Assembly: GCF_900625025.1 (NCBI RefSeq)
Contig: NZ_LR130578.1
Span: 186,001 to 250,000 of the forward strand
Source of the DNA: Lachnoclostridium sp. Marseille-P6806
GTDB lineage: Bacteria > Bacillota > Clostridia > Lachnospirales > Lachnospiraceae
Direction: 5' to 3'
DNA length: 64,000 nucleotides
A program made the position numbers and the translations under genes. Shown one piece after another: positions 3,821 to 29,469 of this stretch. Below the pieces are notes generated by a model. The model was not told the origin of the DNA. It made no database searches and saw only the letters and a list, made by a program, of their open reading frames with translations. Position 1 is the stretch's first letter. Each line of letters opens with the position of its first letter.

Positions 3821-3850
3821 CAGGAGAGGCCGCATTTACGGCCTCTCCTG
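3821..3850 (-). terminator. Hairpin at the end of the GH78 gene (possible terminator)
   Basis: A perfect 12-bp inverted repeat (CAGGAGAGGCCG and its complement) with a 6-nt loop. The GH78 stop codon TAA (3836-3838) lies inside the loop. On the minus strand the downstream run is only moderately T-rich, so termination may be inefficient, or the hairpin may protect the mRNA 3' end. Confidence 0.6.
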
Positions 3851-6577
3851 ACACAGCTCTCCCTCGATCAGATACTCTCCCTTTGTGAAAACCCGGCCGT
3901 GCAGCTCTTCCTCCGTCACCGCCGCGCCATCAAGGATAAAACGCCTGCATATGCGGTCCGGCACAAACCCGGCTTTCCCGCCGAACGGCACCGAGAAGCG
4001 ATAGCTTATGCGGCTCCCATCCTCCGAAAACCTCCAGCCTGAGGTATAGCGCCCTGCAGCAAAGCGCACCGAGGCCTCCGCGCTCCCGAGTCTTTCATCC
4101 GTATGCGGGGCAATGATGAGGCTCTGACCGCCGATGCTGTCCTGTGTCCCCGGATTCGCCCCCTCCCGGTCAATGCACAGGCCGCAGACGCTTTCGTAGA
4201 GCCACCCGGCTATGCAGCCGTAGGCATAGTGATTCAGGGAGTTCATTCCCGTTCCCGAAATACTGCCGTCCGGAAGAAGGGAATTCCAGCGCTCCCAGAT
4301 CGTTGTGGCACCGAGATTCACCTCATAGAGCCAGCTCGGGTAATCCTCATTGAGAAGCAGCGTGAAAGCCTCTCTTCCATGCCCGGTCTGCGTCAGGGCA
4401 CTGCAGATATAGGCCGTGCCGACAAAGCCCGTGGACAGGTGATCTTTCCATTCATGAACCAGCTGCATAAGCTGTTCCCCGGCGATCCTCATCTCCTCCC
4501 CGCTCTCGAACAGCCGGAAATGGACGGCCAGCGCATAGGCTGTCTGCGTACGGATGGAGAGCGTTCCGGGGCCGGTCACATACCGGGCCGTCACAGCCCT
4601 CCGGATCTCTCCGGCAAGCCTGCCGTAAAAGGCGGCATCCTCTGTCTTTTCAAGCACCTCAGCCGCGGCGGCCGTGAGCTCCGCGGAATACATGTAGTAG
4701 ACCGAGGCGACGAAATATTTGTCCGTGCCGCCCTCGCGGTTGTTCATGCCGGCCGCATCCCCCTCCACGTCGAGGCTCAGCCAGTCCCCGAAATGAAAGC
4801 CGCAGGTCCAGAGCCGGCTACCCCCGCAGTGCTCCTCATCCATGCGGAGGATAAAGTCCGTCCACTGCTTCATATTGTCATATTCCGCATCCAGCCACCT
4901 CCGGTTGCCGAAATGCAGATACATAGTCCACGGAATGATCGTCGCCGCATCTCCCCATACCGCCGATCCGGCCTCTCCCCATCCGTCCTCCTCTATTGCA
5001 AAGGGCGGCTCCGCCAGCTTTTCCCGCCCGATCGTCAGAACATCCGGAACGACATACGGGACCGCACCGCCCTTTTCCCTCTGCTCCCATGCCATATCCC
5101 GGAGATACTTGCGGAAGAAAGCCGGCGTCTCCATGTGATAAGAGGCTGCGCCGCAGAAAATCTGTGCGTCTCCCGTCCAGCCGCAGCGCTCATCCCGCTG
5201 CGGACAGTCCGTCGGGATATCAACGAAATTGTCTTTCTCGCTCCACTTGGTGTTTTCGATCAGGCGGTTGACCTTTTTGTTCCCCGTCGTGATAAAGCCG
5301 GTCTCCTCGAGATCGGAATAGAGCGACACCGCCGTGAAATCCGCCGTCCGGACCTGCTCGCTGCTCATCCCGGTCACGCGGACATAGCGGAAGCCGAAGA
5401 AGGTGAAGTGCGCTGCCGCCCTCTCCTTTCTGCCTGACGAGATAAATTCGTAGCGCGCGGCGGCCGTGCGGAGATTATCCCGGTAAAAGCAGCCGTTCTG
5501 AAGCACCTCTCCGTATTCAAGCACGATGCTGTGATCCGCCGGTACATCCGCGGTAAATTCCGCCCAGCCCGATATCTCCTGTCCGAAATCAAGGACCGTC
5601 TCTCCGGCCGGCGTCATGAGAATTTTCTCCGGTGCCCGCTTCTCTCTCTGCACGACCGGAACGCCGAGCATCGGACACAGCAAGGCTTTCGGAGCCTCCG
5701 CCTCCCTCACGGGGCAGAGCTTTTCTGCCGGGGGAGCCGCGAGAATATCAGTAAGCCGCGCATCATAGGCTTCGCCGTCATAAATTCCCGACAGCACGAC
5801 CGGCGATCGAAGACAGTGCCAGTCCGTATCCGTGCCGATGACACGGCTCCCGTTCTCCCCGTTCAGATACAGGTCCGCGAGAAGACAGAACGTGTCGCCG
5901 TAGTATTCCCGCAGCTGCCCGTTTGCGAGATAACCGAAGCGCCCTTTGTACCAGCCGTTTCCGAGCCAGATATCGAGCGTGTTTTCCCCCTCCCGGAGGA
6001 GCCCCGCGATATCATAGGTCTGATACTGCAGCCAGTACCGGTAATCCGTGAAATACGGCGTGAGGAACTGCTCTCCGACTCTCACGCCGTTGAGACGGCA
6101 TTCATAAAGTCCGAGCCCTGTGACATAGAGCCGCGCGGAGCAGAGCTCTGCTTTCTCCTTTGCGGAAATCGAAAAGCTCCTGCGCATGACCGGATGAATT
6201 TCTCTCGAAAAGGCAGGACGGATCCACTTTCCCGTCCATCCGCCCTCCGGATGTCCGCCCTCAAAGAAAGCGGTCCCGCTCTCCGCCGCGTCCCCCGCGT
6301 CGTCCGTGACCGCCACTTTCCAGTAATAGCGCACGGCCGGCTGCACGGTGATATCCGGCGTATAGCACCATGAAGGCAGCTTTCCCTTTCTGTCCGCCTC
6401 GTCCCTGTCACTGTCGAAAAGGAGATCCCGGAATGAGGGATCTGCGGAGAGCATAAATCTCGTATGCTCCGCAAATGCCCCCGCCGCCTCCTCGATCTGC
6501 CATGTGAAGCTCAGATCGGACAGCTCGATCCCTATGGGGTCTTTCTGATAATCCGTTTTCAGTCCTGTGATCCTCAT
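3836..6577 (-). CDS. Alpha-L-rhamnosidase, glycoside hydrolase family 78
   Basis: A 913-aa protein starting MRITGLKTDYQKDP, chosen because GGAGGCAGGCGG sits just before this ATG; the frame stays open further upstream without family similarity. It has the GH78 layout: N-terminal beta domains with a rhamnose-binding-type segment (MRRSFSISAKEKAELCSARLYVTGLGLYECRLNG), then the (alpha/alpha)6 barrel with the signature DCPQRDERCGWTGD, which carries the general acid. A later GATTIWERWNS segment carries the probable base Glu. No signal peptide is seen, so it acts inside the cell on imported oligosaccharides, releasing terminal alpha-L-rhamnose. It is the last gene of the racemase/BKACE/kinase/GH127 operon, 94 bp after GH127. 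Confidence 0.93.
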   Translation of the reverse strand: MRITGLKTDYQKDPIGIELSDLSFTWQIEEAAGAFAEHTRFMLSADPSFRDLLFDSDRDEADRKGKLPSWCYTPDITVQPAVRYYWKVAVTDDAGDAAESGTAFFEGGHPEGGWTGKWIRPAFSREIHPVMRRSFSISAKEKAELCSARLYVTGLGLYECRLNGVRVGEQFLTPYFTDYRYWLQYQTYDIAGLLREGENTLDIWLGNGWYKGRFGYLANGQLREYYGDTFCLLADLYLNGENGSRVIGTDTDWHCLRSPVVLSGIYDGEAYDARLTDILAAPPAEKLCPVREAEAPKALLCPMLGVPVVQREKRAPEKILMTPAGETVLDFGQEISGWAEFTADVPADHSIVLEYGEVLQNGCFYRDNLRTAAARYEFISSGRKERAAAHFTFFGFRYVRVTGMSSEQVRTADFTAVSLYSDLEETGFITTGNKKVNRLIENTKWSEKDNFVDIPTDCPQRDERCGWTGDAQIFCGAASYHMETPAFFRKYLRDMAWEQREKGGAVPYVVPDVLTIGREKLAEPPFAIEEDGWGEAGSAVWGDAATIIPWTMYLHFGNRRWLDAEYDNMKQWTDFILRMDEEHCGGSRLWTCGFHFGDWLSLDVEGDAAGMNNREGGTDKYFVASVYYMYSAELTAAAAEVLEKTEDAAFYGRLAGEIRRAVTARYVTGPGTLSIRTQTAYALAVHFRLFESGEEMRIAGEQLMQLVHEWKDHLSTGFVGTAYICSALTQTGHGREAFTLLLNEDYPSWLYEVNLGATTIWERWNSLLPDGSISGTGMNSLNHYAYGCIAGWLYESVCGLCIDREGANPGTQDSIGGQSLIIAPHTDERLGSAEASVRFAAGRYTSGWRFSEDGSRISYRFSVPFGGKAGFVPDRICRRFILDGAAVTEEELHGRVFTKGEYLIEGELCQERP

Positions 6578-6671
6578 ACCGCCTGCCTCCTGTCTGCCTC
6601 TGTCCCTGCCTGCTCCGCGCCCAAACCGCTCGTACGCAATGGAAAGCGCGGGCTCTTCCGTCCTGTGCGGC

Positions 6672-8681
6672 TCAGCTCCACAGGACCGGGAACCAGATGC
6701 GCATCTCATCCTCTGTCCCGTCGTCCGCCGCCTCCCGTGCAGCGCTCCGGTTGTCCCACGCATAGTACGGGATCATCGTGACCGGAACCTCGGTGAACTG
6801 CGCGGGCTCCAGTCTCCTGTAGAGAGCGCTTCCGGCCGTCCTCTCCTCCGCGCTCCGGCGTCTCATTCGCCCCCGGAGCGCCGGGATCCGCCTCCCCGCG
6901 ATCTCCAGCTCCTCCGGCAGGAAGCTCTCCCGGTCCCCGAAAGCAAGCCAAAGCCCCGACATTCCGCGTCCGGCCTCATCCTCCGGCAGATCCGCCGTTT
7001 CCATACAGTACACGAGAGGCCCCCGCTCCACTGCGGCCCTGCCTCGATCCTCCTCGACCATATCGTCCGCCGCCGTAAGTCGGATCTCCATCGGCAGCAT
7101 GAGCTCTATTTTCTCCCCCTCCGAGAGGGCGAGCGGCACCTCGTAGTAGCTTCCCTCGTCCTCCCCGGAGAGCAGCACACGCTTACCCCCCGCCGCGACC
7201 GAGGCTCCGCGCGCCCAGACCGGAATGCGGAGCGCGAGCTTTGCCGCACCGCGCGCTTTCACTTCCGACACCTCAAAGACGATCCGGCCGTCAGACGGGT
7301 ATTCCGTTCTCTGTGTGAGTGTAAACGCCGCGCCTCCCGCCAGCACGAGCTGCGCCCTGCAGGAGCCGTAAAGGCCGGTATAGACGATATCTCCGCTCTG
7401 CGCATAGCAGTATTCGGAGGCCTCCGCAAGGTTTCTCGCCAGATTCGGCGGACAACAGTAGCTCAGGATATAATCCGTGCGATGCCGTTTCCAGACAAGC
7501 TCATAGTCCAGCCGCGCCGTTCTTTCCAGCATGTTTTCGTAAAAGAAACGAAGCCCGTCCAGGCTTACCGCCGCGAGGTTCGTATTCAGCATGACCCGCT
7601 CGATGATATCGAAATACTGTGCCTTGGGCTCCGCAAGGAACATGCGGTATGCCCACATGACGAGACCGACGTTCGCGCAGGTTTCGTTGTAGGCCGTGAT
7701 ATTCGGCAGCTGGTAGGCATAGCCGTAAGCCTGATGCACAAGCTGATGGTCAAAGAAATTGCCGTAGGGAGAAGCGCCGTTGTAGAGGGCGCCGCAGCCG
7801 CCGGTTATGTAGATTTTCGAGCGCAGCAGATCCTCCCACACACTGTCCAGCACTTCCCGGTACTGCGGATCCCCCGTCTCCATGTAGAGATCCGCCACCC
7901 CCGCATAGAGATAATTCGCGCGAACCGCATGTCCGATGATCCTGCGGTGACGCCGAAGCGGCAGGCGGTCCTGATTGTCGTCAAGACCGTGCCGCACCGA
8001 ATCCCGCAGCGTAACCGCCTCTTTCGCAAGGCGCAGATACCTGTCCTTCCCGGTCACCCGGTACAGTTCGATGAGCCCCATGTAATGCGAGGGACAGACC
8101 GCCGTCTGTATCTCTCCCTTTCTCCGGGCCTCCTCATAGAGCCCTTCCAGATAATCCGCAGTTCTCTCCGCGACGGAAAGAAAATTAACCTTTCCGGTCA
8201 AACGATAATGCAGTGCCGCGGCCGTGAACAGGTGGCCGAAATTGTAAACCTCAAAATCGTTGATGTCCCCCATACGGGATGCGCCGGTCCCGCTCTTCTC
8301 CCCGATGATCTGTTTCGTCGAGAGATAGCCGTCGGGCTGCTGTGCCCTGCCGATCAGCGCAATATATTCGTCGAGCTCTGCAAGGAGCCGGGAATCTCCG
8401 GTCCGAACCGCGCTGTACATGGCCGCTTCCATCCACTTGTAAAAGTCTCCGTCTCCGAAAACCGTACCGTCGAACACTCCCTCCCGCTCTCCTGCCGCAA
8501 TGCGGAAATTCTCAACCACATGGCTGATATCCGCGCAATCGAACATCCTCCGCAGCTGCGGCACCGTGGCGGAAAAAACAGTTTGCTCCACATCCCTCCA
8601 GAACCCGTCCGTCCAGACCACGGCGCGGCTGTCCGGAGGCGAAGCCTTTGCATAGGGTGATTTCCTCGTATCTGTAAGCAT
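6672..8681 (-). CDS. GH127-family (DUF1680) beta-L-arabinofuranosidase-like protein
   Basis: A 669-aa intracellular protein preceded by AGAAAGGA. It shows the GH127 zinc/thiol site: Glu333 and Cys335 in NETCAN, and Cys409-Cys410 in CCPPN. In the characterised enzyme HypBA1 the corresponding residues bind zinc, and one Cys of the CC pair is the nucleophile. The residue 16 positions before the zinc Glu, which is the catalytic acid/base Glu in HypBA1 (recalled from memory), is Gln317 here (VHQAYGYAYQLPN). The true substrate may therefore differ from beta-L-arabinofuranose. It lies 30 bp after the DUF1537 kinase, in an operon with the GH78 rhamnosidase, which suggests pectin side-chain breakdown. 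Family confidence is high; substrate confidence is low. Confidence 0.88.
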   Translation of the reverse strand: MLTDTRKSPYAKASPPDSRAVVWTDGFWRDVEQTVFSATVPQLRRMFDCADISHVVENFRIAAGEREGVFDGTVFGDGDFYKWMEAAMYSAVRTGDSRLLAELDEYIALIGRAQQPDGYLSTKQIIGEKSGTGASRMGDINDFEVYNFGHLFTAAALHYRLTGKVNFLSVAERTADYLEGLYEEARRKGEIQTAVCPSHYMGLIELYRVTGKDRYLRLAKEAVTLRDSVRHGLDDNQDRLPLRRHRRIIGHAVRANYLYAGVADLYMETGDPQYREVLDSVWEDLLRSKIYITGGCGALYNGASPYGNFFDHQLVHQAYGYAYQLPNITAYNETCANVGLVMWAYRMFLAEPKAQYFDIIERVMLNTNLAAVSLDGLRFFYENMLERTARLDYELVWKRHRTDYILSYCCPPNLARNLAEASEYCYAQSGDIVYTGLYGSCRAQLVLAGGAAFTLTQRTEYPSDGRIVFEVSEVKARGAAKLALRIPVWARGASVAAGGKRVLLSGEDEGSYYEVPLALSEGEKIELMLPMEIRLTAADDMVEEDRGRAAVERGPLVYCMETADLPEDEAGRGMSGLWLAFGDRESFLPEELEIAGRRIPALRGRMRRRSAEERTAGSALYRRLEPAQFTEVPVTMIPYYAWDNRSAAREAADDGTEDEMRIWFPVLWS

Positions 8682-8711
8682 AGCATCCTTTCTCCCGAAG
8701 GCCTGTCCCGC

Positions 8712-10190
8712 TCAGCGCGCGGAAAGCGTCTCCACCACTCTGCAGAGACTGTCCTCCTCTCCGACATTTCCCGGAAAGATCACATAGGGGATGCCCGGAA
8801 AACGACTCTCCCCGCCGCAGCGCCAGACCGGGATCCCCGGCTGCACCTGTCCCAGCACCCACGCCCGCTTCACGCGGAGCGCTTTCGTTCCCACATCGCT
8901 CGAGGTGATCCCGCCCTTTGCGATCACATAGGCCGGCGTCTCCTCCATCTCCCCGATCACGGAAACCAGCGCCTCCGAGATCGAGACCGACCGCCGCAGC
9001 GCCCTCTCTGCCGTGTCGCCCGGCAGCTCGAGGCGCTTTCGCTTCGTATAAACGACCGGCGTGATCCCCCGTTTCACATCACTCTCCGCGAGGATGCGCA
9101 CCCGGGCCGCCTCCTCCGCGAGGCCGCCGCTCACGACCAGATCCGAATCGAACTCTATGAAGTCCAGCCCCGGCAGACCGCGCAGCCTCTCCAGCTGCCG
9201 CGTCGTCTTCTCCGTATGGGAGCCGGCCACGATGACGCCGCCGTGTCCCGACGGGCTCTCCGCACACATCTCCTTTGCCGTGAGGAGCGGTATATCCGGA
9301 ACCGCGCCGACAGCCCTGACAAAATCCGCTGCCGTGCGGCAGAGGAAATGCCGCCCTTTCGCGATGCACCGGTACAGCGCGGCAGCAAAGACCCTGAGGT
9401 CCGAGAGCTCGAGGGCGTTGACCACGATCACCCGGCCGTCCCGCGCATGGAGGAGCCGTTCCTCCGCTCCGTCCGCATCCCCTCTCCGGAGGAGCTCCAG
9501 CGGAATGCTGAGGACCTCCTGCGCCGGGACCTTTCCCCCCGTCTTCTCCTCGACATAGTCGGGAAGAAAGGAATGGGAATAGCCAAAGCTCACATCACGG
9601 GCAAACTCTGTCTGCGCCGCGGGGATGAGCTCATCGCCCCGCAGCACATAGTGGACATTTCCTATTGTTATCCGGCCGCCCGCAAGAAAAAACGGTGCGA
9701 GAATAATTCCGTCCTGCGAGGTGCCGAGACGCTCTTCAAGTCCGGCCCCGATCAGCTCCGTCTCCAGCGGGAAATGACCGCGGAGCGTGGAATCGCTGCG
9801 GCTGATGATCTGAAACGCCGTCCCCGTCTCCTCCGCCGCCGTGCAGAGATTCTCCACAAGCTCGCGGTGCAGCGCCGTCGTCTCCGTCTCCGTAAGTCCG
9901 CGGGAATTGGTGAGGACATAAAACATCGGGAGCCGCTCCGAGAAAGCCCTGCGCAGGGTATCCGCGCTCCATTCCGTATAGACCGGCAGATCGTGGATCG
10001 TCTGCACTCCCGTGGGATCATCGTCGAGAACCACCCAGCAGAAGCCGGCGGCCGCTGCCCTCTCCCGGAGCTCCCTCTCCGCCGCCGCGATCCGCTCCCT
10101 GTTTTCCGCTTTTGCGGCAATCGCCCCGTAATATTCCCGCTGCTCCCGGCAGCTCAGGACAGTCTGTTCCCTCTCTCTCGATACGAACAT
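8712..10190 (-). CDS. DUF1537-family acid-sugar kinase (four-carbon acid sugar kinase type)
   Basis: A 492-aa cytoplasmic kinase, start backed by GGAGGAACGGAGC. The N-terminal substrate domain carries the family hallmark VVLDDDPTG (about residues 52-60). The C-terminal nucleotide domain carries VIAKGGITSSDVGTKALR. A roughly 45-residue charged N-terminal helix precedes the usual start of the fold. Known members phosphorylate erythronate, threonate, 3-dehydro-tetronates or 3-oxo-isoapionate. The usual partner dehydrogenases, aldolases or PdxA2-like enzymes are absent from this operon; instead it sits 24 bp after a BKACE gene and 30 bp before a GH127. It therefore probably phosphorylates a rare acid sugar released from plant glycan. 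The substrate cannot be read from sequence. Confidence 0.88.
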   Translation of the reverse strand: MFVSREREQTVLSCREQREYYGAIAAKAENRERIAAAERELRERAAAAGFCWVVLDDDPTGVQTIHDLPVYTEWSADTLRRAFSERLPMFYVLTNSRGLTETETTALHRELVENLCTAAEETGTAFQIISRSDSTLRGHFPLETELIGAGLEERLGTSQDGIILAPFFLAGGRITIGNVHYVLRGDELIPAAQTEFARDVSFGYSHSFLPDYVEEKTGGKVPAQEVLSIPLELLRRGDADGAEERLLHARDGRVIVVNALELSDLRVFAAALYRCIAKGRHFLCRTAADFVRAVGAVPDIPLLTAKEMCAESPSGHGGVIVAGSHTEKTTRQLERLRGLPGLDFIEFDSDLVVSGGLAEEAARVRILAESDVKRGITPVVYTKRKRLELPGDTAERALRRSVSISEALVSVIGEMEETPAYVIAKGGITSSDVGTKALRVKRAWVLGQVQPGIPVWRCGGESRFPGIPYVIFPGNVGEEDSLCRVVETLSAR

Positions 10191-10214
10191 GCTCCGTTCC
10201 TCCCTCCCCCGGGA

Positions 10215-11105
10215 TCACCGGCCCGCTTCGTTGATGCGAAAAAGCCGGCGCGCCTCGTCCGACGTCATCGGCTCACAGCCCGCCTCCCGGACAAGCTGCG
10301 CCGCCCTCCGGATGAGCGGCGCATTCACCGCAGCCCGCCTCCCCGGTTCCAGATAATCTGAATCCTCAAAGCCTACGCGCAGGGAATCTGCTCCCTGCTC
10401 CAGCGCGTACCGCATCATATCCCAGTCCCGGCGCCCCGCCTGCGTATAACCCCACAGAAGCTCCCGGCCCTCCGCCGGTCTTTCGATGTGATCCCCAAGA
10501 TACGCGAGCGCCGGAGCCCTGTCGCAGACATGACTGCCAAAGCTCTCATCCAGAAATTGCAGCATATGATGCAGCGCCGCAGGGGTGGCCGGCAACTCCC
10601 CGCCGTGCCCGAAGACAAGCGCGACAAGAAGCGGATCCCGGAACGGAAGCTGCTCCGTGAGCCTCCGCAGCGTGTGGATCATCCCCAGCTCAAAAACCTC
10701 CGTCTCGGGGAGCTTCCGGTTCTCAAGTATCCTTGCCGCGCAGTACTCCACCTCGTCGGCAGGGTTCCGGTAGACCGCTTTTCCCAGATTCACGGAACCG
10801 ACATTCAGGCTGTTCGCCTCCACATAATCGGGAAAGCACGGCGCACAGCGCTCCCGGATCGTCAGATCGGACACGCCGCCGGTGGATACCTCAATGATGA
10901 TGTCACATTTTTCCCGGATCCTCCGCACGGTTTCCGCAAGGAACGTGAGATCGGAGGTGAGCGCCGCATTCTCATCCCGCACATGAAGATGCACCATGGC
11001 GGCTCCCTCCCGGCAGCACTGCCGCACATCCTCCGCCAGAGCGGCAGGATCGATGCGGTGCGGAGACGCCGGGACCGGCGCCGCTGACAGCATGACCTTA
11101 TGCAT
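10215..11105 (-). CDS. BKACE-family (DUF849) beta-keto acid cleavage enzyme
   Basis: A 296-aa protein of the family named after 3-keto-5-aminohexanoate cleavage enzyme (Kce). Family members condense a beta-keto acid with acetyl-CoA to give acetoacetate and a new acyl-CoA, using zinc. The metal motif HLHVRD is present near residue 40, IEVSTGG in the middle, and LRVGFEDSDY near residue 235, matching the family's GxED active-site strand. The lysine-fermentation partner genes expected for true Kce are absent, so the substrate is probably different, perhaps a keto form of an acid sugar. Its start overlaps the racemase-like gene by 8 bp, and the DUF1537 kinase follows after 24 bp. Confidence 0.87.
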   Translation of the reverse strand: MHKVMLSAAPVPASPHRIDPAALAEDVRQCCREGAAMVHLHVRDENAALTSDLTFLAETVRRIREKCDIIIEVSTGGVSDLTIRERCAPCFPDYVEANSLNVGSVNLGKAVYRNPADEVEYCAARILENRKLPETEVFELGMIHTLRRLTEQLPFRDPLLVALVFGHGGELPATPAALHHMLQFLDESFGSHVCDRAPALAYLGDHIERPAEGRELLWGYTQAGRRDWDMMRYALEQGADSLRVGFEDSDYLEPGRRAAVNAPLIRRAAQLVREAGCEPMTSDEARRLFRINEAGR

Positions 11106-11799
11106 GGTTTTCCCGCCTCCTGTCCGGCATCAGCGTTCCTTTGTCCTGCAGTGCGCGGCGGAGAGCCGCCGCTCCGAAGCGGGGGCTCGAGAGCACAGGC
11201 CTGCGGCAGCGCTCCGCAAGATAGGACTCGCAGTACGCCATGCTGCCCTGCGCAAGGACGATGACGTCCGCACTGTCCGCGATCCTGTCCGCGCACTCCC
11301 CCATCCGCTCCCGGAAAGCCTCCTGATTTAAGCCGAATGCCCCGTCCACAAGACATTCCGTGATCTCCACCGCCATTCCGCATTCTCTCGCCGCACGGCG
11401 TATCGTACTGCAGGTAGGAGCGAGCGTCGTGGGAAGCGTCGCCATTACGCCGATGCGTCGTCCCCTCCGCACCGCTTCACGGCACATCTCCTCATCGATA
11501 CGGACGATGGGAACGCCGAGATACTTTGCCGCATCCTGCATAGAGTCCGCCGCCTCTCCCACCGAGGAACAGACATTCAGCACCGCATCGCAGTTTTCCT
11601 GTACCGCATTCATGAACATCGTGAAAAGACGCGCTGCCGGGGCGGCCGTCACATAGCCGTTCTCCCGCACCTCGGCAAGGATCGACGGATCCTCCTGCGC
11701 ATAGATCTCAATCTCTTCCCCAAGAGCCCTGCGCAGCTCGCGGTTCACATCCTCTTTCAGCTCCGGCGTCGTACTCGTATACACGATACCTACTTTCAT
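11098..11799 (-). CDS. Asp/Glu/hydantoin racemase superfamily protein
   Basis: A 233-aa protein starting MKVGIVYTST. A GTG start 39 bp upstream is possible, but the added residues are not family-like. It has two repeated alpha/beta lobes, each with a catalytic-type Cys: Cys77 in LNVCSSVGEAAD and Cys190 in AQGSMAYC. This two-Cys pattern occurs in amino-acid racemases and hydantoin racemases, while arylmalonate decarboxylase-like relatives keep one. As the first gene of an operon with BKACE and an acid-sugar kinase, it more likely acts on a sugar-derived acid (epimerisation or decarboxylation) than on a cell-wall amino acid; that is inference. It overlaps the BKACE gene by 8 bp, suggesting coupled translation. 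Confidence 0.8.
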   Translation of the reverse strand: MKVGIVYTSTTPELKEDVNRELRRALGEEIEIYAQEDPSILAEVRENGYVTAAPAARLFTMFMNAVQENCDAVLNVCSSVGEAADSMQDAAKYLGVPIVRIDEEMCREAVRRGRRIGVMATLPTTLAPTCSTIRRAARECGMAVEITECLVDGAFGLNQEAFRERMGECADRIADSADVIVLAQGSMAYCESYLAERCRRPVLSSPRFGAAALRRALQDKGTLMPDRRRENHA

Positions 11800-11861
11800 A
11801 TCCTCAGGCCCTTTCTTTTCTCTCCCCTGCCGGTTCACAGCAGGATGAATGCTCCGTCTTC

Positions 11862-11890
11862 ATTATAAAGCAGCCCCGGCCCGCCTCGAA
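11862..11890 (-). promoter_or_regulatory. Candidate promoter for the racemase-BKACE-kinase-GH127-GH78 operon
   Basis: On the minus strand a perfect -10 TATAAT (11862-11867) has a weak -35 TTCGAG (11885-11890) at 17-bp spacing, about 60 bp before the racemase-like gene. It makes the last five genes of the locus a separately transcribed unit after GH42. Confidence 0.6.
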
Positions 11891-11949
11891 GTCCGATAAA
11901 TTGTGATTGCGGTGGAAAATTTTAAGCCGCAGCGGCAGACGTATCGCCA

Positions 11950-13980: not shown

Positions 13981-15044
13981 TTCTTCCCCCCTGTCCCGCT
14001 GCGCTGCCGTCCGCCCATGTCCCGGACGCTTTTTCTTTCTATCAGCCTTGTCTTTATCGCGGTCTTCTGCACGCCGTCGACCTGGCCGTCCATCAGGTTC
14101 ACAAGCTGGTTTACCGCACAGTTCCCAAGCTCCTGCTTGGAGGTGCTGACGCTGGTGAGCGGCGGTTCTACAAGTCCTGCGATCGGAATGTCGTCAAAGC
14201 CCACCACCGAAACGTCCTCCGGGATCCGAAACCCCAGCTCACGCAGCACCTTGATGGCATATACCGCTATAATATCGTTATCCGCAAAAAAGGCCGTCGG
14301 CATCTGATGCCTGCCCTCCATTTTCTTTTTCAGCTCCCAGAAAACAGCCTCTCCGCCGTACAGCGTGGAGAAGCGTATGATGTCCTCCTCGCGGATCGGA
14401 AGGCTGTGAAGCTCCATGGCGCGGCGAAACCCGAAATACCGCTCCCGGAAGTTGACGGCGTCTCCCTCCACATGGATATATCCGATCCTCTCATGCCCTC
14501 TGCTGACCAGATGGGAAATCGCCAGCTCCACTCCCTGCTCATTATTGAGCATAACGCAGTTGAGATCCGCCCTCTCGCAGTAATTGTCCAGCACGACCAT
14601 GGGAAGACGGAGCCGGTCAAGCAGCAGGATCTTCTCCTCCTCCATTTCCGTGGCAAGGACAAGAAGCCCCGCCGTGCCCCTGCGGTCGATGCTGCCGGTC
14701 ACCTCCTCGAAATTCTCTGCGTCGGCCGTGAGAATGCTGAGCTCACATTCCTTACACCTCGCCTGTCTTTCCACGCCCTCGATCACGCTGGAAAAGGTCT
14801 GTGAAAAGTAGGACTGATTGCTGCCCTGTCCGTTTTTGCGATATTCAAGAAACAGGATCTTCCTCCGCTTTTCATTCTCCGGTTCGGAAAGAAGCCCCGC
14901 ATTCCGCGCCTCCTCCAGAACACGGGCGCGCGTCCCCGCGCTCACTCCCGGACGATTGTTAAGCGCCAGAGAAACACTGGCCGCCGATATCCCCAGCCTC
15001 TGTGCAATATCCCTTGATGTCACGAACAGCTTTCTCTTACTCAT
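13977..15044 (-). CDS. LacI-family transcriptional regulator
   Basis: 355 aa, starting MSKRKLFVTSRDIAQRLG; a longer upstream frame was rejected because it overlaps the permease and lacks family similarity. The helix-turn-helix (SRDIAQRLGISAASVSLALN) and hinge precede a sugar-binding effector domain (FADNDIIAVYAIK, VVGFDDIPIAG). The gene sits inside the transporter operon: its ATG overlaps the permease stop by 4 bp and its stop overlaps the GH42 ATG by 4 bp. Its level should therefore rise with the operon it presumably controls. It is clearly related to the regulator at 31370: both have YRK(N/H)G, TAGL..L.TEM and a DN pair after the LLLD/VVLD strand, and their recognition helices are very alike. 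Confidence 0.92.
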   Translation of the reverse strand: MSKRKLFVTSRDIAQRLGISAASVSLALNNRPGVSAGTRARVLEEARNAGLLSEPENEKRRKILFLEYRKNGQGSNQSYFSQTFSSVIEGVERQARCKECELSILTADAENFEEVTGSIDRRGTAGLLVLATEMEEEKILLLDRLRLPMVVLDNYCERADLNCVMLNNEQGVELAISHLVSRGHERIGYIHVEGDAVNFRERYFGFRRAMELHSLPIREEDIIRFSTLYGGEAVFWELKKKMEGRHQMPTAFFADNDIIAVYAIKVLRELGFRIPEDVSVVGFDDIPIAGLVEPPLTSVSTSKQELGNCAVNQLVNLMDGQVDGVQKTAIKTRLIERKSVRDMGGRQRSGTGGKK

Positions 15045-15874
15045 TTGACCGAGCCCAGAATCCCTTCCACAAAATTTTTCTGCAATACGAAGAAAATGAA
15101 AATTGTCGGAAGCGTAGAAATCACGATCCCCACCATAATCATACCGTAATCCGGCGCGAAGCCCCCCGCAAGATTGGAAACCATGAGAGGCAGCGTATAT
15201 TTTTCCTCGCTCTGCAGCGCCACAAGCGGCCACATATAATTATTCCATGCCGCCATAAAGGAAAAGACCGCTGCCGCCGCGTAGGTCGACCGCATCATCG
15301 GCATATAGATCCGCAGAAAAATTCCCGCTTCACTGCAGCCGTCGACGCGGGCCGCCTGCATCGTCTCTCTCGGAAAGCTCTCGGAATTCTGACGGAAAAA
15401 GAACACCAGAAACGGGGCCCCTATCGCCGGAAGAATAATGGCCCAGTAATTATTAAGAAGATGCATATTCGCGAAAATCCTGTACAGGGGGATCAGCTTT
15501 GCCGCAAACGGGACCATCATGGAGGCGATCAGGATGAGGAAGACGATTTCCGTCGCCCGGGAGCGGTAGATCGCAAAGGCGTAGCCCGCCGCCGAACAGA
15601 CAAGAATCGAAAGGACCGTGACCATGACGGAAACATAAACGGAATTGAGAAACGCTCTGCCGATATCCGCCGCTTCAAAGGCGTTCCGCAGGTTCTCCAC
15701 AAGCCGCGTCCCCGGCAGCAGTTTGCCCATGGATATCTCCGCCGAGCTGTTCGTCGCGCTCACGAGCATCCAGAGGAAAGGAAAGACGGACAGAAAGGAT
15801 ATCAACAGCATAAAGATATGCCTCACTCCGTAGCGCAGGCTTCTCCTTTTATTTTTCATCTGTTTTGATCTCAT
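15041..15874 (-). CDS. Carbohydrate ABC transporter permease (MalG type)
   Basis: 277 aa with six predicted membrane helices and the EAA loop ETMQAARVDGCSEAGIFLRIYMPMM, which docks on the ATPase. A strong AAAAGGAGG precedes the ATG. It is the second permease of a family-1 sugar importer (binding protein 16912-18216, first permease 15889-16764). No ATPase gene is nearby; in Clostridia a shared MsmX/UgpC-type ATPase encoded elsewhere normally serves such systems. The C-terminus ends EGILGSVK, normal for the family. It is coupled to the LacI gene by a 4-bp overlap. Confidence 0.92.
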   Translation of the reverse strand: MRSKQMKNKRRSLRYGVRHIFMLLISFLSVFPFLWMLVSATNSSAEISMGKLLPGTRLVENLRNAFEAADIGRAFLNSVYVSVMVTVLSILVCSAAGYAFAIYRSRATEIVFLILIASMMVPFAAKLIPLYRIFANMHLLNNYWAIILPAIGAPFLVFFFRQNSESFPRETMQAARVDGCSEAGIFLRIYMPMMRSTYAAAAVFSFMAAWNNYMWPLVALQSEEKYTLPLMVSNLAGGFAPDYGMIMVGIVISTLPTIFIFFVLQKNFVEGILGSVK

Positions 15875-15888
15875 ATTCTGCCTCCTTT

Positions 15889-16764: not shown

Positions 16765-16795
16765 AGGAGCTCCTGTTCAAAAAGGGACCGTGCGC

Positions 16796-16869
16796 ATTAA
16801 GGACAGGGACGGCAGGGCACAGTGCTTTCCGGCAGATATTCCTCTGTGCCCCTACGCCTTTTCCTTAAT
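16796..16869 (-). other. Intercistronic stem-loop between binding protein and permease genes
   Basis: The outer arms ATTAAGG (16796-16802) and CCTTAAT (16863-16869) and the inner arms GGGCACAG (16815-16822) and CTGTGCCC (16844-16851) can fold into one long interrupted hairpin. It has no T-run, so it is more likely an mRNA-stabilising or attenuating element than a full terminator. A similar arrangement occurs in the second transporter operon (21777-21802). Confidence 0.6.
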
Positions 16870-16911
16870 ACGGCAGTCCCTCACCCGTTTCCGATCACCG
16901 CAGTTCTGTTC

Positions 16912-18504: not shown

Positions 18505-18556
18505 AACAGAAAAACAGGCATAAGCCCGGCAAAGCATCTGCCGGTTTACGCCTGTT
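18505..18556 (-). terminator. Rho-independent terminator overlapping the stop of the MGH1-type gene
   Basis: On the minus strand a stem of about 17 bp with small bulges (arms at 18513-18531 and 18538-18556) is followed by TTTTCTGTTT. The stop codon (18546-18548) lies within the stem. It separates the 23188-18546 operon from the next transporter operon. Confidence 0.85.
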
Positions 18557-24279: not shown

Positions 24280-26038
24280 GCCCCGACTCCTTAATTGCCT
24301 GCTCAACCTGCTTCCCGGAAAGAGAGGGAATACGGATCTCCGCCACAGTTCCTCCGCTCTCCCGGTTCCGGAAGCAGATTCCGTACTCCTCCCCGTAAAA
24401 CAGTCTGATGCGTTCCCTGATATTGCGGATCCCGTATCCGTGATCCAGCGCATCAGCATCAGCGATCCCCACCCCGTCGTCCAGAACGGAAAATTCCAGC
24501 ACGCCTCCGTTTCGCTTCCCGCGCACTGTGACCGTACCCGGTCCGGGCTTCGGCTCGAGTCCGTGATAAACCGCATTCTCCACGAGCGGCTGGAGGATGA
24601 ACGTAAGGATATATTCCTCCCTCATCTTCTCCTCCACATCGATGTGCAGCGTGTACCGGCCGTGAAAACGGTAGTTCTGGAGCTTCATGTATGCCGCGAT
24701 CCGCTGCATTTCACTGCTGACCGGTATCAGCTTGTCCCCCTGATTGAGGCTCAGCTTGAAATTTTCGGAGAGGGACTGCACGAAATCGGCGATTTCATCC
24801 TCGTTTTTGAGAATGGCCATGAAATACAGCGTATCCAGCGTATTATACAGAAAATGCGGATTAATCTGCGATTGGAGGAGCAGAAGCTCCGACTCCCGCT
24901 CCCGGATCGTTGACTGAAGCAGTCGATCCTTGAGCTCCAGATTATTGTTGACAAGATCCTTGAAGCGGTTTCCGATCCTCCCCGCCTCGCTGTCGTCAAA
25001 GCTCGCCTCGACGCGCAGATTTCCCTCGCCGACACTCCGTATCGTCCCCTCCAGCACCGACAGCGGCGCAGTAATCGTCCGCGAAACACGGGCCGAAACC
25101 GGAATTGCCAGCCCGATCAGCAGAAATGCCAGCAGAAGCGCCGTCATCGCGACGAGGCGGCTGCGGGAGAAAAGCTCCGCCTCTGAAATAGCGCTGACCA
25201 CAGTCCAGCCGCTGATCCGGTTGTTCTCCTGCGCAAAAACATAACTTCCTCGGCCCTGTCCCCCAAAGGCCGCGAGAATCCCGGCAAGCTCCTCATCGTC
25301 TGCGGGAAGGGAGGTATACACCGGCCTCACCTTCCCAGCCGCGCTGTGTTCCCCGCTCCCGGGCGCATCTGCCGCAAGGATCAGATATTCCGAATTGTCA
25401 TATCCCTCCTTCGGGGTCCCGAAAGCCGACGCGAGCGACGATTTCCGCACATTAAAAACGAGATACCCCATCGGCTCCCCCGAGGCGGACAGCAGGAGCT
25501 TGGCCACCGAGAAAGCATCATCTCTGCCGCTGTCAAAGAGAATGTTGCCGACATAAAAGACCTCGCGCCCCTTTGCTGCATCGCAGTCCGCCACCCATGC
25601 TCTCTGCAGAATATTTTCCTCTGTCTGGTACGGAACGATATAGCTGCGGTTTGAATCATTCTGCGAGGCAAAAACGATATTGCCCGCCATGTTGACTGCG
25701 AGAATATCCCGCACGGCATTTCCCGAAAAAAGCGGCTTCTGAAGCTGGTCGAGCAGGATGCGGCTGCCGCTCGCCGTGAACGTCCGGCTCCCCGGATTCT
25801 CCTCCGCAAATGCACTCCGAAAGACAGTATTCGCAAGAAACGACCGTTCTTCATCAACGACGGACTTCAGCGTGATTTCCAGAACATGATTCGCAACCTG
25901 TATGCCGTCCGCATGGGCGGACTGATATTCCTCGCGTATCGTCCGGCTGGAGAAATAATAAAGAGCAGCGCCAAGAACCGTCGTGGTGAGCACCGCGACG
26001 GTTACAAGGGCAATGAATATCTGTTTGCGTATTGTCAT
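24254..26038 (-). CDS. YesM-type sensor histidine kinase
   Basis: 594 aa: membrane helix 1 (about 7-29), an extracellular sensor region of dCache type (30-290), membrane helix 2 (296-316), HAMP (317-370), and a His_kinase module with phospho-acceptor His395 in QINPHFLYNTLDT. A HATPase domain follows, with N box QPLVENAVYHGLEPK and G boxes DDGVGIAD and GYGIRNIRERI. It senses an external ligand, often through a sugar-binding protein, and phosphorylates the response regulator at 23470-24279. Its ATG overlaps the stop of the FGGY kinase by 4 bp, placing it in the same operon as the apiose-type catabolic genes. Confidence 0.93.
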   Translation of the reverse strand: MTIRKQIFIALVTVAVLTTTVLGAALYYFSSRTIREEYQSAHADGIQVANHVLEITLKSVVDEERSFLANTVFRSAFAEENPGSRTFTASGSRILLDQLQKPLFSGNAVRDILAVNMAGNIVFASQNDSNRSYIVPYQTEENILQRAWVADCDAAKGREVFYVGNILFDSGRDDAFSVAKLLLSASGEPMGYLVFNVRKSSLASAFGTPKEGYDNSEYLILAADAPGSGEHSAAGKVRPVYTSLPADDEELAGILAAFGGQGRGSYVFAQENNRISGWTVVSAISEAELFSRSRLVAMTALLLAFLLIGLAIPVSARVSRTITAPLSVLEGTIRSVGEGNLRVEASFDDSEAGRIGNRFKDLVNNNLELKDRLLQSTIRERESELLLLQSQINPHFLYNTLDTLYFMAILKNEDEIADFVQSLSENFKLSLNQGDKLIPVSSEMQRIAAYMKLQNYRFHGRYTLHIDVEEKMREEYILTFILQPLVENAVYHGLEPKPGPGTVTVRGKRNGGVLEFSVLDDGVGIADADALDHGYGIRNIRERIRLFYGEEYGICFRNRESGGTVAEIRIPSLSGKQVEQAIKESGHVQTGGCG

Positions 26039-27519
26039 TTATGCAGCGCCATGCCCACGGCAGCCCTCCAGCCCGCGTAGAGCTCATCCGCCTCCTGCCC
26101 GCTCATCGAAGGCTGATAGCTCCGCCGCTCCACACTGTCAAAAAGCTCATGTCTGTCATAAAGACCGACCGCGAGCCCCGCCGCATAAGCAGCACCCATT
26201 CCGGAGAGCTCCTCGGTCGGCGGAACCGCGACCGGGATCCCGGTGATGTCGCTCTGAAACTGCATAAGGTAACGGTTGCCGGTAGGCCCGCCGTCCACAC
26301 GGAGCTCCCGGAGCGGCAGTCCCGTATCAGCCTGCATCGCGCGCAGAACATCCGTGATCTGATAGGCAATACACTGCAGGGCATCACGCACGATTTCCGC
26401 ACGCCCTGTCGTCCTTGACATGCCGCAGAGCAGCCCCCTCGCATGCGGAGCCCAATAAGGGGCCCCAAGGCCCGTGAAAGCAGGCACAAGATAGGAGCGG
26501 TCATCCGGATTCGCCACTTCTGCGAGCGTCTGCGTCTGTCCCGCGGAATCGATAAGCCCCAGATCATCCTTGAGCCATGTGACGACCGCGCCGGTATAAT
26601 TGATATTTCCCTCGAGGACATACTCCGCACGTCCCCCCATTCTCCACGCAAGAGAGGTCACCAAGCCGTTTCCGGAAAGCACCGGCCTGTCCCCTATATG
26701 CATCATGATCGACGAGCCGGTGCCGTAGGTCGCCTTTATCATGCCCTTTTCGAGACAGCCCTGACCGAACAGTGCGCCGTGCGAATCCCCCAGCACACCC
26801 CGGATGGGGATCGGGTACGGAAGGTAGCCCTCAAGGTCCGTCTCCCCGAAGTCGCCGTCTGAATCCGTGATCTCCGCGAGCACCTCCTCCGGCACGCCGA
26901 ACAGAGCACATATCTCCTTGTCCCACGAGAGCGAGGCCAGATTGAACAGCTGCGTTCTCGAAGCATTGGAGCAGTCCGTGCGGTATACCCTGCCGTGCGT
27001 AAGCCGGTACACAAGATAGCTGTCCATCGTCCCCATACGCAGACGCCCCTCTCTCAGAACGCGTCCCGCCTCCGGCACATTTTCCAGTATCCATGCGAGC
27101 TTTGCCCCAGGGAAGTACGGAGAGAGGCGGATCCCCGTCGCCGCATACACCCTCCCCGAAATATCTTCTCCGCTTTTTGCTATCCGCTCACAGAGCTCCG
27201 CCGCCCGCGCGCACTGCCAGACAACGGCATCGCAGACCGGCTTCCCCGCATCATCAAAAGCCACCGTGGTCTCCCGCTGGTTGCTGATGCCGAGCGCTGC
27301 GATCTCCTTTCTGTCAATCCCGGATCTGTCCACCACATTCCTGACGGCCTGCAGCGTGTTCGCATAGATCTCCTCCGGGTCATGGCTGACCCAGCCCCGT
27401 TCGCTCACAATCTGCCTGTGTGCGAGATCCGCCCGCTGCATGAGCCTGCCCCCGGCGTCGAAGAGCAGAGCCTTGGTCCCCTGCGTGCTCTGGTCGATGC
27501 TCAGAATATACTTTCCCAT
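26035..27519 (-). CDS. FGGY carbohydrate kinase; probable apulose kinase (AplK-like)
   Basis: 494 aa from MGKYILSIDQSTQGTKALLF, with AAGGATGA before the ATG. Both FGGY halves are present. The ATP-side phosphate loop is DQSTQGTK, the catalytic Asp lies in LGDSHGALFGQG, and the C-terminal nucleotide site includes VDGGPTGNRYLMQFQSDI. By sequence it resembles glycerol kinase (NQRETTVAFD, VVWQCAR), but no glycerol genes are nearby. It follows a fucose-isomerase-type gene and a split transketolase, the gene set of the D-apiose pathway, in which an FGGY kinase phosphorylates D-apulose. It also overlaps the histidine kinase by 4 bp. Kinase family certain; apulose inferred from context; glycerol kinase is the main alternative. 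Confidence 0.75.
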   Translation of the reverse strand: MGKYILSIDQSTQGTKALLFDAGGRLMQRADLAHRQIVSERGWVSHDPEEIYANTLQAVRNVVDRSGIDRKEIAALGISNQRETTVAFDDAGKPVCDAVVWQCARAAELCERIAKSGEDISGRVYAATGIRLSPYFPGAKLAWILENVPEAGRVLREGRLRMGTMDSYLVYRLTHGRVYRTDCSNASRTQLFNLASLSWDKEICALFGVPEEVLAEITDSDGDFGETDLEGYLPYPIPIRGVLGDSHGALFGQGCLEKGMIKATYGTGSSIMMHIGDRPVLSGNGLVTSLAWRMGGRAEYVLEGNINYTGAVVTWLKDDLGLIDSAGQTQTLAEVANPDDRSYLVPAFTGLGAPYWAPHARGLLCGMSRTTGRAEIVRDALQCIAYQITDVLRAMQADTGLPLRELRVDGGPTGNRYLMQFQSDITGIPVAVPPTEELSGMGAAYAAGLAVGLYDRHELFDSVERRSYQPSMSGQEADELYAGWRAAVGMALHK

Positions 27520-27583
27520 CGTCTCATCCTTATGTCTGGCCTGTCCCGGCAGACGTCTCTCCCGTATCCGCGCAGCGCAGGCA

Positions 27584-28519
27584 TCAGGCAAGCGCTTCCT
27601 TTGCCTTTTGGGCAATGCCCTCTGCATTCATACCGTAATAGTCAAAAACCTCCGCAGAAGTCCCCGTGATGACGGGCTCGTCCGGAAGTGCGATTTCCAG
27701 CACCTTTTTCGGATCGTTCTCCGAGACGATCTGCGCGGTTATGGCGCCCAGTCCCCCGAACGGCGCGTGCTCCTCCACCGTGACGATGGCGCGTGTTGTC
27801 CGTGCCGCGCGGAGCACCGCCTCCCTGTCGACCGGCTTCAGACAATACATGTCAAGGACCTGTGCGCTGATGCCCTCCGCCGCGAGCAGCTCCGCTGCAT
27901 CCGCCGCAGGGCGCACCATTTCTCCGCAGGCGAGGATCGCCACATCGCTCCCCTCCCGGACAAGCGTCGCCCTGTCCATTTCAAAGGGACAGTTTTCTTC
28001 CGTGTAGACGTCCTCCACCGGATTTCTTCCTGTCCGAATATAGGCCGGCTTCTCATCTGCCAGAAGGGCCTCGAACAGCTTTCTCGTCTGGAAGCGGTCC
28101 GAAGGAAGATATACGCGCATGCCCGGAATGGCTGTCATCGCTGCGATGTCCTGCGCGCTGTGATGGCTCATGCCCAGAGCACCATAGCTGATGCCTCCGG
28201 AAATCCCGATGAGCTTGACGTTCTGGCCGGAGTAGGCGCAGTCCACCTTGACCTGCTCATAGCTCCTCGTAGAGAGAAAGCTCGCCGGAGAGGCTGCGTA
28301 AGGTTTCTTTCCGCTCTTGGCAAGTCCCGCCGCGATACCGACGAGATCCTGTTCGGCGATACCGACCTCGACCGACTGCCCCGGGTATCGCTCGAAGAAC
28401 GGGGTGAGCGACGCAGAGCCGCGGGAATCGCTGCACAGCACGACAATATCTTTGTCGACCACGGCATGCTCCATCAGAACATCGCAGATCACTTTGCGGT
28501 TCGGAATACGGTTAGACAT
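27584..28519 (-). CDS. Transketolase C-terminal subunit; probable apulose-4-phosphate transketolase subunit B
   Basis: 311 aa from MSNRIPNRKVICDVL. It holds the pyrimidine-binding domain (catalytic-type Glu in VEVGIAEQDLVGIAAGLA) and the transketolase C-terminal domain (DMYCLKPVDREAV, VTVEEHAPFGGLG). It forms an active enzyme with the N-terminal subunit, whose gene overlaps its start by 8 bp. Split transketolases in carbohydrate operons are usually specialised. Here the neighbours (isomerase, FGGY kinase) match the D-apiose pathway, in which apulose-4-phosphate and glyceraldehyde-3-phosphate give xylulose-5-phosphate and dihydroxyacetone phosphate. The reaction is inferred from context. Confidence 0.75.
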   Translation of the reverse strand: MSNRIPNRKVICDVLMEHAVVDKDIVVLCSDSRGSASLTPFFERYPGQSVEVGIAEQDLVGIAAGLAKSGKKPYAASPASFLSTRSYEQVKVDCAYSGQNVKLIGISGGISYGALGMSHHSAQDIAAMTAIPGMRVYLPSDRFQTRKLFEALLADEKPAYIRTGRNPVEDVYTEENCPFEMDRATLVREGSDVAILACGEMVRPAADAAELLAAEGISAQVLDMYCLKPVDREAVLRAARTTRAIVTVEEHAPFGGLGAITAQIVSENDPKKVLEIALPDEPVITGTSAEVFDYYGMNAEGIAQKAKEALA

Positions 28520-29354
28520 TGAGAAGCGCCTCCTTTCCTGCATCCAGATCGCGGACGATGTGTTCATATTCCTCCACCGTCGGCACATGATGATGCCACT
28601 CCGCCTTGTTTTCCATTACGGGGCTTCCCTTGCCCTTGACGGTATTCGCTATGAGGCAGGTGGGACATCCCTTTGTCTCACGGGCCTCTGCAAAGGCGGC
28701 ATGCAGCGCATCAAGATCATTGCCGTCCTCCACATTCACGACGTGCCAGCCAAAGGAGCGCACTCTGTCCGCCAGCTTCTCCTGCGCCATGACGTCCTCC
28801 GTACTGCCGGAAATCTGCAGCCGGTTCCTGTCGATTACGGCACAGAGCGTATCCAGTCCGTACATATGTCCGGACATGAAGCCCTCCCACACCGAGCCCT
28901 CCGCGAGCTCACCATCACCCATGACCACATAGGTGCGGCTGTCCCTCCCGCTCATCCGGTTGCCGAGCGCCAGTCCCACCGCCACGGGAAGACCGTGGCC
29001 AAGAGAGCCCGAATTCATCTCCATGCCCGGCAGCTTGTTGTTCGGATGCCCGATATAAGGCGACCCGAAGCGGGAGAAACGCGCCCTGACATCCTCCAGA
29101 TCAAGAAAGCCCCTCGCGCACAGGACCGCATAATACGCCTCCACGGCGTGTCCCTTGCTGAGAATAAAATAATCCCGATCCGGATCCTCCCGGTTCTCCG
29201 GGGAAATATTCATCTGGTTGAAATACAGCTCGATCAGTGTATCCATGACACTCATATCGCCGCCGATGTGGCCTCCGCCGCCCGCCATGATGATATCGAG
29301 CGTATCCCTGCGAAGGTCATATGCCCTGCGCTTCAGATTTTCCATGCTCTCCAT
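28512..29354 (-). CDS. Transketolase N-terminal subunit; probable apulose-4-phosphate transketolase subunit A
   Basis: 280 aa from MESMENLKRRAYDLRR; AAAGGAGGATCGGA before this ATG fixes the start. It carries the thiamine diphosphate and Mg site GDGELAEGSVWEG with the distal Asn177 (IDRNRLQI), the His-Gly segment SKGHAVEAYY and the loop GSLGHGLPVAVG, all standard for transketolase. It lacks the pyrimidine and C-terminal domains, which are on the next gene. The two genes overlap by 8 bp, as expected for a fixed-ratio heteromer. Its role in apiose breakdown is inferred from the neighbouring isomerase and kinase genes. Confidence 0.78.
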   Translation of the reverse strand: MESMENLKRRAYDLRRDTLDIIMAGGGGHIGGDMSVMDTLIELYFNQMNISPENREDPDRDYFILSKGHAVEAYYAVLCARGFLDLEDVRARFSRFGSPYIGHPNNKLPGMEMNSGSLGHGLPVAVGLALGNRMSGRDSRTYVVMGDGELAEGSVWEGFMSGHMYGLDTLCAVIDRNRLQISGSTEDVMAQEKLADRVRSFGWHVVNVEDGNDLDALHAAFAEARETKGCPTCLIANTVKGKGSPVMENKAEWHHHVPTVEEYEHIVRDLDAGKEALLNV

Positions 29355-29469
29355 TCCGATCCTCCTTTCCCCTGCCGGAGCTCTTCCGGCACCCCGCGCT
29401 CTCTCTGTGGGCGCAGAGCACACAATACCATCTCAAGCACCATCCGGAGCTCATGCACGGCCTCAGGGC

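Follow-up and report, generated by a model that had tools for sequence, protein, structure and literature searches.

What does a bacterium do with an acid sugar once a glycosidase has freed it from pectin? The question is raised by a locus in a 64,000-nt stretch of the Lachnoclostridium sp. Marseille-P6806 genome (contig NZ_LR130578.1, positions 186,001 to 250,000; hereafter the window, to whose whole length all coordinates refer), in which a racemase-like protein (RAC), a BKACE-family protein and a DUF1537-family kinase (KIN) are encoded next to a member of glycoside hydrolase family 127 (GH127). A sequence-only reading of this DNA had proposed that the triplet degrades an unusual acid sugar from rhamnogalacturonan II (RG-II), and had named aceric acid, 3-deoxy-D-manno-octulosonic acid (KDO) and 3-deoxy-D-lyxo-heptulosaric acid (DHA) as candidates. 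Based on the analysis presented here, we consider it fairly probable that the triplet forms a module for the use of aceric acid, within a larger locus that handles oligosaccharides from RG-II side chains. The four proteins at the core of this proposal are as follows (domain calls are by Pfam unless another model is named).

11098..11799, minus strand (listed open reading frame (ORF) to 11838): RAC, racemase-like protein; Asp/Glu racemase superfamily PF01177 (Asp_Glu_race), 60.8 bits, cut-off 31
10215..11105, minus strand: BKACE-family protein of a distinct RAC-linked subfamily; BKACE domain PF05853, 191 bits, cut-off 24.8
8712..10190, minus strand: KIN, DUF1537-family acid sugar kinase; SBD_N 165.6 bits and NBD_C 114.6 bits, the two DUF1537 domains, each over its cut-off
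6672..8681, minus strand: GH127 of an aceric-acid-hydrolase-like clade; catalytic domain PF07944, 310.5 bits, cut-off 24.9; NF049879, 713 bits, cut-off 950; 5MQO, 500.9 bits

A recurrent gene set and its GH127 partner

A scan of a collection of 84,980 species with short peptide patterns of RAC, which recovers close relatives only, gave 57 loci from taxa that include Lachnospiraceae, other Clostridia, Sporomusa, Pelosinus, Succinatimonas, Brachyspira and Vagococcus. One of the carriers is the culturable Blautia schinkii DSM 10518 (L009), and L022 and L025 are the loci of Sporomusa sp. KB1 and Pelosinus propionicus. KIN and BKACE are each present in 46 of the 57 loci and GH127 in 38; 29 loci have all three. 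The sequence-only reading was to fall if the triplet did not recur elsewhere; KIN and BKACE accompany RAC together in 40 of the 57 loci, so that it is not refuted on this count. Several missing partners fall at contig ends, and where RAC is flanked by at least 5 kb on either side (38 loci), KIN and BKACE are both present in 31; in four RAC loci, an OtnK-like DUF1537 kinase takes the place of KIN. Of the glycosidases found near RAC, GH127 is the most regular partner, followed by GH78 (16 loci) and GH42 (7 loci).

The association also holds in 150 genomes of the family, among which 60 have some GH127-like match and eight have the window's GH127 clade (at least 734 bits), while RAC scores at least 243 bits in eight and has weaker relatives in six more. 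The GH127 clade and strong RAC share six genomes (Fisher p=5e-8), and in all six the two lie on one contig within about 15 kb. KIN and a BKACE are found in all ten genomes with the GH127 clade or strong RAC (p=6e-10 for KIN), and, as we read the profile matches by their coverage and score, the divergent form of BKACE appears limited to these ten; overall, KIN occurs in 22 and BKACE in 24 of the 150 genomes. At the level of the class, the GH127 clade is present in five of 391 genomes (window included), RAC relatives in 13 and both in three. We conclude that the conservation of the set is far beyond chance.

The GH127 protein provides the pointer to the substrate. On the NCBIfam aceric acid hydrolase model NF049879, four further clade members score 674-793 bits versus 424-473 bits for five other GH127s, and none reaches the curated cut-off of 950; because the window's GH127 is likewise under this cut-off, it cannot be filed as a confirmed aceric acid hydrolase. 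Its best sequence match in the PDB is 5MQO, with the next matches at 332.4, 272.9 and about 268 bits. All 40 clade members examined (among them 34 of the 38 locus GH127s, two others being too short and two having over-long frames, and five from further genomes) carry an insertion, GALYxGxxPYG...HQAxGxxYQLPN, of which a closely similar version is present in 5MQO and which is absent from eight of eight other GH127s. Two clade members (L083 and L087) have the insertion and do not lie beside RAC. The link between a Bacteroides GH127 and aceric acid given in the sequence-only reading was correct: BT1003 is named aceric acid hydrolase in the accessible part of PMC10850190. Thus, among the three candidate sugars the sequence evidence points to aceric acid, whereas KDO and DHA gained no support in searches of which none was specific to either, the glycosidase partner belonging to an aceric-acid-like GH127 clade.

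A proposed route for aceric acid

We tentatively propose the following scheme as the likeliest, in which all chemistry is inferred and of which the exact order of steps and assignment of enzymes is doubtful. The sequences support that GH78 and GH42 could trim the RG-II chain, and GH127, resembling the known hydrolase, would release aceric acid (3-C-carboxy-5-deoxy-L-xylose). RAC would then turn this aldose into the 2-ketose HOCH2-CO-C(OH)(COOH)-CHOH-CH3, a branched beta-keto acid that would be the methyl homologue of 3-oxo-isoapionate, itself a known substrate of DUF1537 kinases. At its Zn site, BKACE would perform a retro-aldol split between C3 and C4 to yield acetaldehyde and 3-oxo-tetronate, KIN would phosphorylate the latter to 3-oxo-tetronate 4-phosphate, and decarboxylation, either spontaneous or by an aldolase-family enzyme, would give dihydroxyacetone phosphate and CO2. 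The sum balances (C6H10O6 = C4H6O5 + C2H4O), and no dehydrogenase would be needed, matching a triplet that has none.

The conservation of Met14 of the listed ORF, in 54 of 56 aligned sequences, makes 11799 the probable translation start of RAC; homologues shorter than 85% of the query do not enter these residue counts (2 of 57 for RAC, 3 of 45 for KIN and 0 of 46 for BKACE). Two-base racemases have two active-site Cys. In RAC, the first of these places is occupied by Cys and the second by Gln in 12/12 aligned sequences, distant relatives included, and both places are invariant in the 43 rows of alignment A1 (the window plus 42 of the 57 loci). A two-Cys, two-base racemase is, therefore, unlikely, and we rejected this assignment; with a single active-site Cys, RAC is probably an isomerase or a decarboxylase. 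Comparison of RAC with solved structures by sequence and by profile gave no match.

BKACE has the Zn and catalytic residues of its family (H39, H41, E136, R243, E247 and D248), and all 51 RAC-linked sequences keep these six residues (they come from the window, from 46 loci, from L084 and from three of the ten co-occurrence genomes; one row, L116, a wrong-frame ORF, was excluded from the tree). These sequences separate in a tree from 15 ordinary BKACEs with a support of 0.976, are at most 31% identical to them and have 29-30 residues before the first Zn ligand versus 35-38 in the ordinary proteins. The lysine-fermentation BKACE Kce (NF052387) was considered and rejected as an identity for the window protein, which scores 167.1 bits versus a cut-off of 382 and lies on a separate branch; it has in common with Kce (2Y7D) the Zn ligands and the catalytic Glu, Arg and Asp, and differs from it in the same way as from the ordinary BKACEs. 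The plasmid relatives of BKACE are at most 33.3% identical among the 20 matches listed.

KIN is far below the cut-offs of the models for D-threonate kinase (39.8 bits, cut-off 450) and 3-oxo-tetronate kinase (OtnK; 24.7 bits, cut-off 350), and the model for 3-oxo-isoapionate kinase (OiaK) gave no match at E 0.001. Because the KIN clade is also present elsewhere, both among the 22 family genomes and on plasmids of Priestia and Ligilactobacillus, it is not diagnostic alone. In L063, L064 and L065, it adjoins a GarR-like dehydrogenase, and on the Priestia and Ligilactobacillus plasmids a gluconate:H+ symporter is present as well, which gives a minimal acid-sugar set.

Loci that differ from the window in their composition inform on both the substrate and the intermediates. 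In 19 genomes, GH127 is lacking from the fetched locus; the clade lies elsewhere in six of these, one carries no GH127 other than a distant one, and 12 are without any. Importers of the tripartite ATP-independent periplasmic type (Pfam DctP, DctM) or bile-acid-symporter type occur in 10 of 13 loci of clade-less genomes versus 5 of 44 others (p=1e-5). What these loci import thus seems to be a free acid, for which GH127 is the alternative source. In L018, L021, L022 and L025, an HbpS-like protein (PF03928, 92.4 bits in L022) is kept between the bile-acid-symporter-type importer and a GntR regulator.

In the Succinivibrionaceae-type loci L030, L053 and L055, RAC and BKACE lie in one run with OtnK (572.3, 545 and 544.6 bits), an OtnC-like decarboxylase (270.7 bits in L030, over the cut-off of 250; 231 and 234.3 bits in L053 and L055, under it) and an OtnI-like isomerase (304.6, 286.3 and 286.1 bits, cut-off 325). 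On the short contig L034, OtnC (265.6 bits) and an OtnI-like protein (299.5 bits) are beside RAC. No dehydrogenase was found in the RAC run of the three loci or in the ten flanking proteins scanned, which include an enolase-superfamily protein in L030 and a glycerate kinase in L055. According to the accessible part of PMC10580937, a dehydrogenase makes 2-oxo-tetronate in the known tetronate pathway. Because the run has none, RAC and BKACE probably supply an oxo-tetronate here.

A different replacement is seen in L007, L081, L082 and L085, which keep RAC but have a split transketolase and a TIM barrel of the xylose-isomerase-like kind in place of KIN and BKACE; this module also has a GntR regulator and, in three of the four loci, a transaldolase-like protein. 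Rhodococcus and Deinococcus plasmids (L059 and L066) carry a RAC relative together with a kinase, a class II aldolase of the fructose-bisphosphate aldolase (FBA) type, a short-chain dehydrogenase/reductase (SDR)-type oxidoreductase and a sugar ATP-binding cassette (ABC) importer; near RAC in L059 there is also an annotation similar to the enolase superfamily (MR_MLE).

Weighing the proposal against its alternatives

Several observations weigh against an aceric acid module of the proposed kind. We know of no aldose-ketose isomerase with the fold of RAC, so that this activity would be new. GH127, at 713 of the required 950 bits, could act on another acidic substrate, and no paper was found that names 5MQO, which we take to be BT1003. 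Sporomusa and Pelosinus are among the 12 genomes without any GH127, and it would be surprising if they fed on free aceric acid. No GH106 was found in the genome that holds the window, so that a full RG-II set is not evident; a complete RG-II degradome was accordingly rejected for this genome, which has two apiosidase-domain proteins and in which other RG-II families were not searched. Four of the family genomes break the association: the GH127 clade is present in G077, where RAC is missing, and in G098, whose nearest equivalent of RAC scores 80 bits, whereas G037 and G054 carry RAC and lack the clade. In G077 (L086:9483-11578), the reading frames of kinase and BKACE are either interrupted or fused to the start of a binding protein, with a BKACE fragment in an odd frame, which is either a decayed copy or an assembly error. 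At the class level, two of the five GH127 carriers have no RAC match: in G418, the stretch beside BKACE reads N, and in G361, there is no module near GH127. The p-values are optimistic because the loci share ancestry. Moreover, in the Succinivibrionaceae-type loci the OtnI-like protein beside RAC leaves one of two isomerases unexplained by our scheme, and in L030 the enolase-superfamily (MR_MLE) protein (L030:5097-6272) lies upstream of a divergent DeoR regulator.

The division of labour could differ for the same substrate: BKACE or an unlinked enzyme would make the ketose, KIN would phosphorylate it, RAC would decarboxylate it and a class II aldolase would cleave the resulting 5-deoxypentulose 1-phosphate to dihydroxyacetone phosphate and acetaldehyde. 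Arylmalonate decarboxylase, which works without a cofactor, belongs to the superfamily of RAC, and the single Cys with Gln at the second place fits catalysis by one base. In four of the 57 loci (L018, L022, L025 and L040) and in Rhodococcus and Deinococcus, a class II aldolase of the FBA type lies near RAC and a kinase, and the xylose-isomerase-like module described above gives an isomerase, RAC and a cleavage enzyme. However, this arrangement would require BKACE to be an isomerase, an activity we do not know from its family, the kinases of L030, L053 and L055 score above the 3-oxo-tetronate kinase cut-off, and the window's triplet has no aldolase, so we regard it as possible and yet on the unlikely side. 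A classical BKACE reaction, in which a beta-keto acid and acetyl-CoA give acetoacetate and an acyl-CoA, would agree with the intact catalytic positions of the RAC-linked sequences; the shortened stretch before the first Zn ligand speaks against it, as does the ketose of aceric acid, which has no alpha hydrogen of the kind that the classical mechanism needs, and we think such a reaction quite improbable.

The substrate itself could be a different acid, whether organic acid or sugar acid and whether of tetronate size or larger, with the GH127 clade acting on a related but different acidic glycoside. The GH127 score under the curated cut-off, the carriers that have acid importers and no GH127, and the RAC relatives of Caballeronia, Paraburkholderia and Deinococcus, which are accompanied by a sugar ABC importer and by an oxidoreductase annotated as NAD(P)-dependent, would all fit this reading. 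We consider it rather unlikely, given that the insertion-bearing GH127 clade is the tightest glycosidase partner and that the pectin-type enzymes and an apiose-like block fit RG-II. Finally, a general acid-sugar set could adjoin pectin glycosidases by chance, for kinase and BKACE taken alone are not rare in the family; against the two association p-values given above and the recurrence of the set across many genera, this explanation is very improbable.

Known pathways resemble the module in part. With the D-erythronate/L-threonate pathway (DenD or LtnD, OtnI, OtnK, OtnC; accessible part of PMC10580937), it shares a DUF1537-family kinase and, in L030, L053 and L055, the company of OtnK-, OtnC- and OtnI-type proteins; it differs in lacking a dehydrogenase, in having RAC and BKACE in addition and in the low OtnK score of KIN. 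A D-apionate pathway with the kinase OiaK acting on 3-oxo-isoapionate was reportedly described by Carter in 2018. It has in common with our scheme a branched plant acid sugar, a DUF1537 kinase and a beta-keto acid intermediate, whereas it uses a dehydrogenase and RuBisCO-like enzymes and KIN has no OiaK match. This work of Carter on D-apionate and OiaK is cited in the accessible part of PMC6302742.

If our assumption about 5MQO is right, the GH127 insertion is common to BT1003 of the Bacteroides thetaiotaomicron RG-II degradome. BT1003 is known for the release of aceric acid, and the literature searched on this sugar yielded nothing on its later fate. No literature was found on DUF1537 with BKACE, or on an acid sugar kinase with a cleavage enzyme, nor was a bacterial catabolic pathway for aceric acid found in the accessible parts of the literature on this sugar, most subscription journals being outside the search. 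The protein families are known; their combination, the subfamilies and the substrate assignment appear to be new.

The surrounding genes and the RG-II context

The co-directional run around the triplet is longer than first described and reads, in order of transcription on the minus strand, solute-binding protein, two ABC permeases, LacI-type regulator, GH42, RAC, BKACE, KIN, GH127 and GH78. The tight packing of the triplet had been given correctly, with an 8-bp overlap of the RAC gene with the BKACE gene followed by gaps of 24 bp and 30 bp. The triplet's own TATAAT promoter was not supported, being a lone hexamer: a two-hexamer scan of window positions 6500-19000 found 6 sites versus a shuffled mean of 5.0, and none between GH42 and RAC. 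The further genes of the run, a neighbouring glycosidase and a candidate apiose block are listed below.

3836..6763, minus strand: GH78 alpha-L-rhamnosidase, translation start probably near 6577 as read from the sequence; Bac_rhamnosid6H 353.7 bits
11950..13980, minus strand: GH42, beta-galactosidase family; Glyco_hydro_42 436 bits
13977..15044, minus strand: LacI-family regulator, start by reading, listed ORF to 15233; Peripla_BP_3 125.2 bits; LacI DNA-binding match 26.5 bits, slightly below the cut-off of 27
15041..15874, minus strand: ABC permease; BPD_transp_1 57.8 bits
15889..16764, minus strand: ABC permease; BPD_transp_1 60.9 bits
16912..18276, minus strand: ABC solute-binding protein; SBP_bac_8 92.9 bits
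18546..19853, minus strand: MGH1/GH63-like glycosidase; Pfam 80.3 bits; relatives in 5 of the 57 RAC loci
26035..27627, minus strand: FGGY kinase, candidate D-apulose kinase; 38% identical to E. coli SE15 AplK; also passes the GlpK subfamily cut-off (560.8 versus 498 bits)
27584..28588, minus strand: C-terminal half of a split transketolase, AptB-like; Pfam, 37% identical to AptB
28512..29423, minus strand: N-terminal half of a split transketolase, AptA-like; Pfam, 41% identical to AptA
29470..30897, minus strand: L-fucose/sulfoquinovose-isomerase-like protein, candidate apiose isomerase; NF048012 104.5 bits, cut-off 700; Fucose_iso_C 21.7 bits, cut-off 29.3

The GH42 family also includes alpha-L-arabinopyranosidase. 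Because aceric acid in RG-II bears a beta-1,2-galactose (accessible part of PMC11739564), GH42 and GH2, the latter near RAC in 5 of the 57 loci, fit an RG-II side chain; also near RAC are an apiosidase-like protein in 4 and GH29 in 7 loci (one each of the three being Pfam-typed), and a rhamnose isomerase in one.

The candidate apiose block, made up of the isomerase, the two transketolase halves and the FGGY kinase, is found in the window about 14 kb upstream of RAC, and such a block is near RAC in 10 of the 57 loci; apiose belongs to the same polymer (accessible part of PMC7939467). In comparison with the D-apiose pathway (ApsI, AplK, AptA/AptB; accessible part of PMC13001218), the window's kinase and split transketolase are 37-41% identical to the E. 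coli SE15 proteins, and its isomerase is L-fucose/sulfoquinovose-like rather than the E. coli SDR pair, ApsI itself lying outside this comparison. At 34114-36993, a few kb from the block, there is a GH2-type glycosidase with mannosidase-like domains. Reading of the ORFs at 18546-23188 gives a second ABC-type importer gene set, with the MGH1/GH63-like glycosidase.

In its widest form, our proposal joins several claims: a first and redox-free bacterial pathway for free aceric acid, an isomerase activity of RAC and an aldolase activity of BKACE that are each new for the fold, an interchangeable second module in other Clostridia, and cross-feeding of those importers that have no glycosidase. That all of these hold jointly is unlikely. 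RG-II is a land-plant pectin and hence common in diets, and a description of the bacterial fate of its aceric acid was not found; if the proposal is true, the locus would close this gap and yield a three-enzyme prediction that can be tested directly. It would also assign functions to three protein groups of Clostridia from gut and rumen, namely a family of racemase-like proteins, a subfamily of BKACE and a clade of DUF1537 kinases, and those bacteria which take up the acid without having the glycosidase may be cross-fed.

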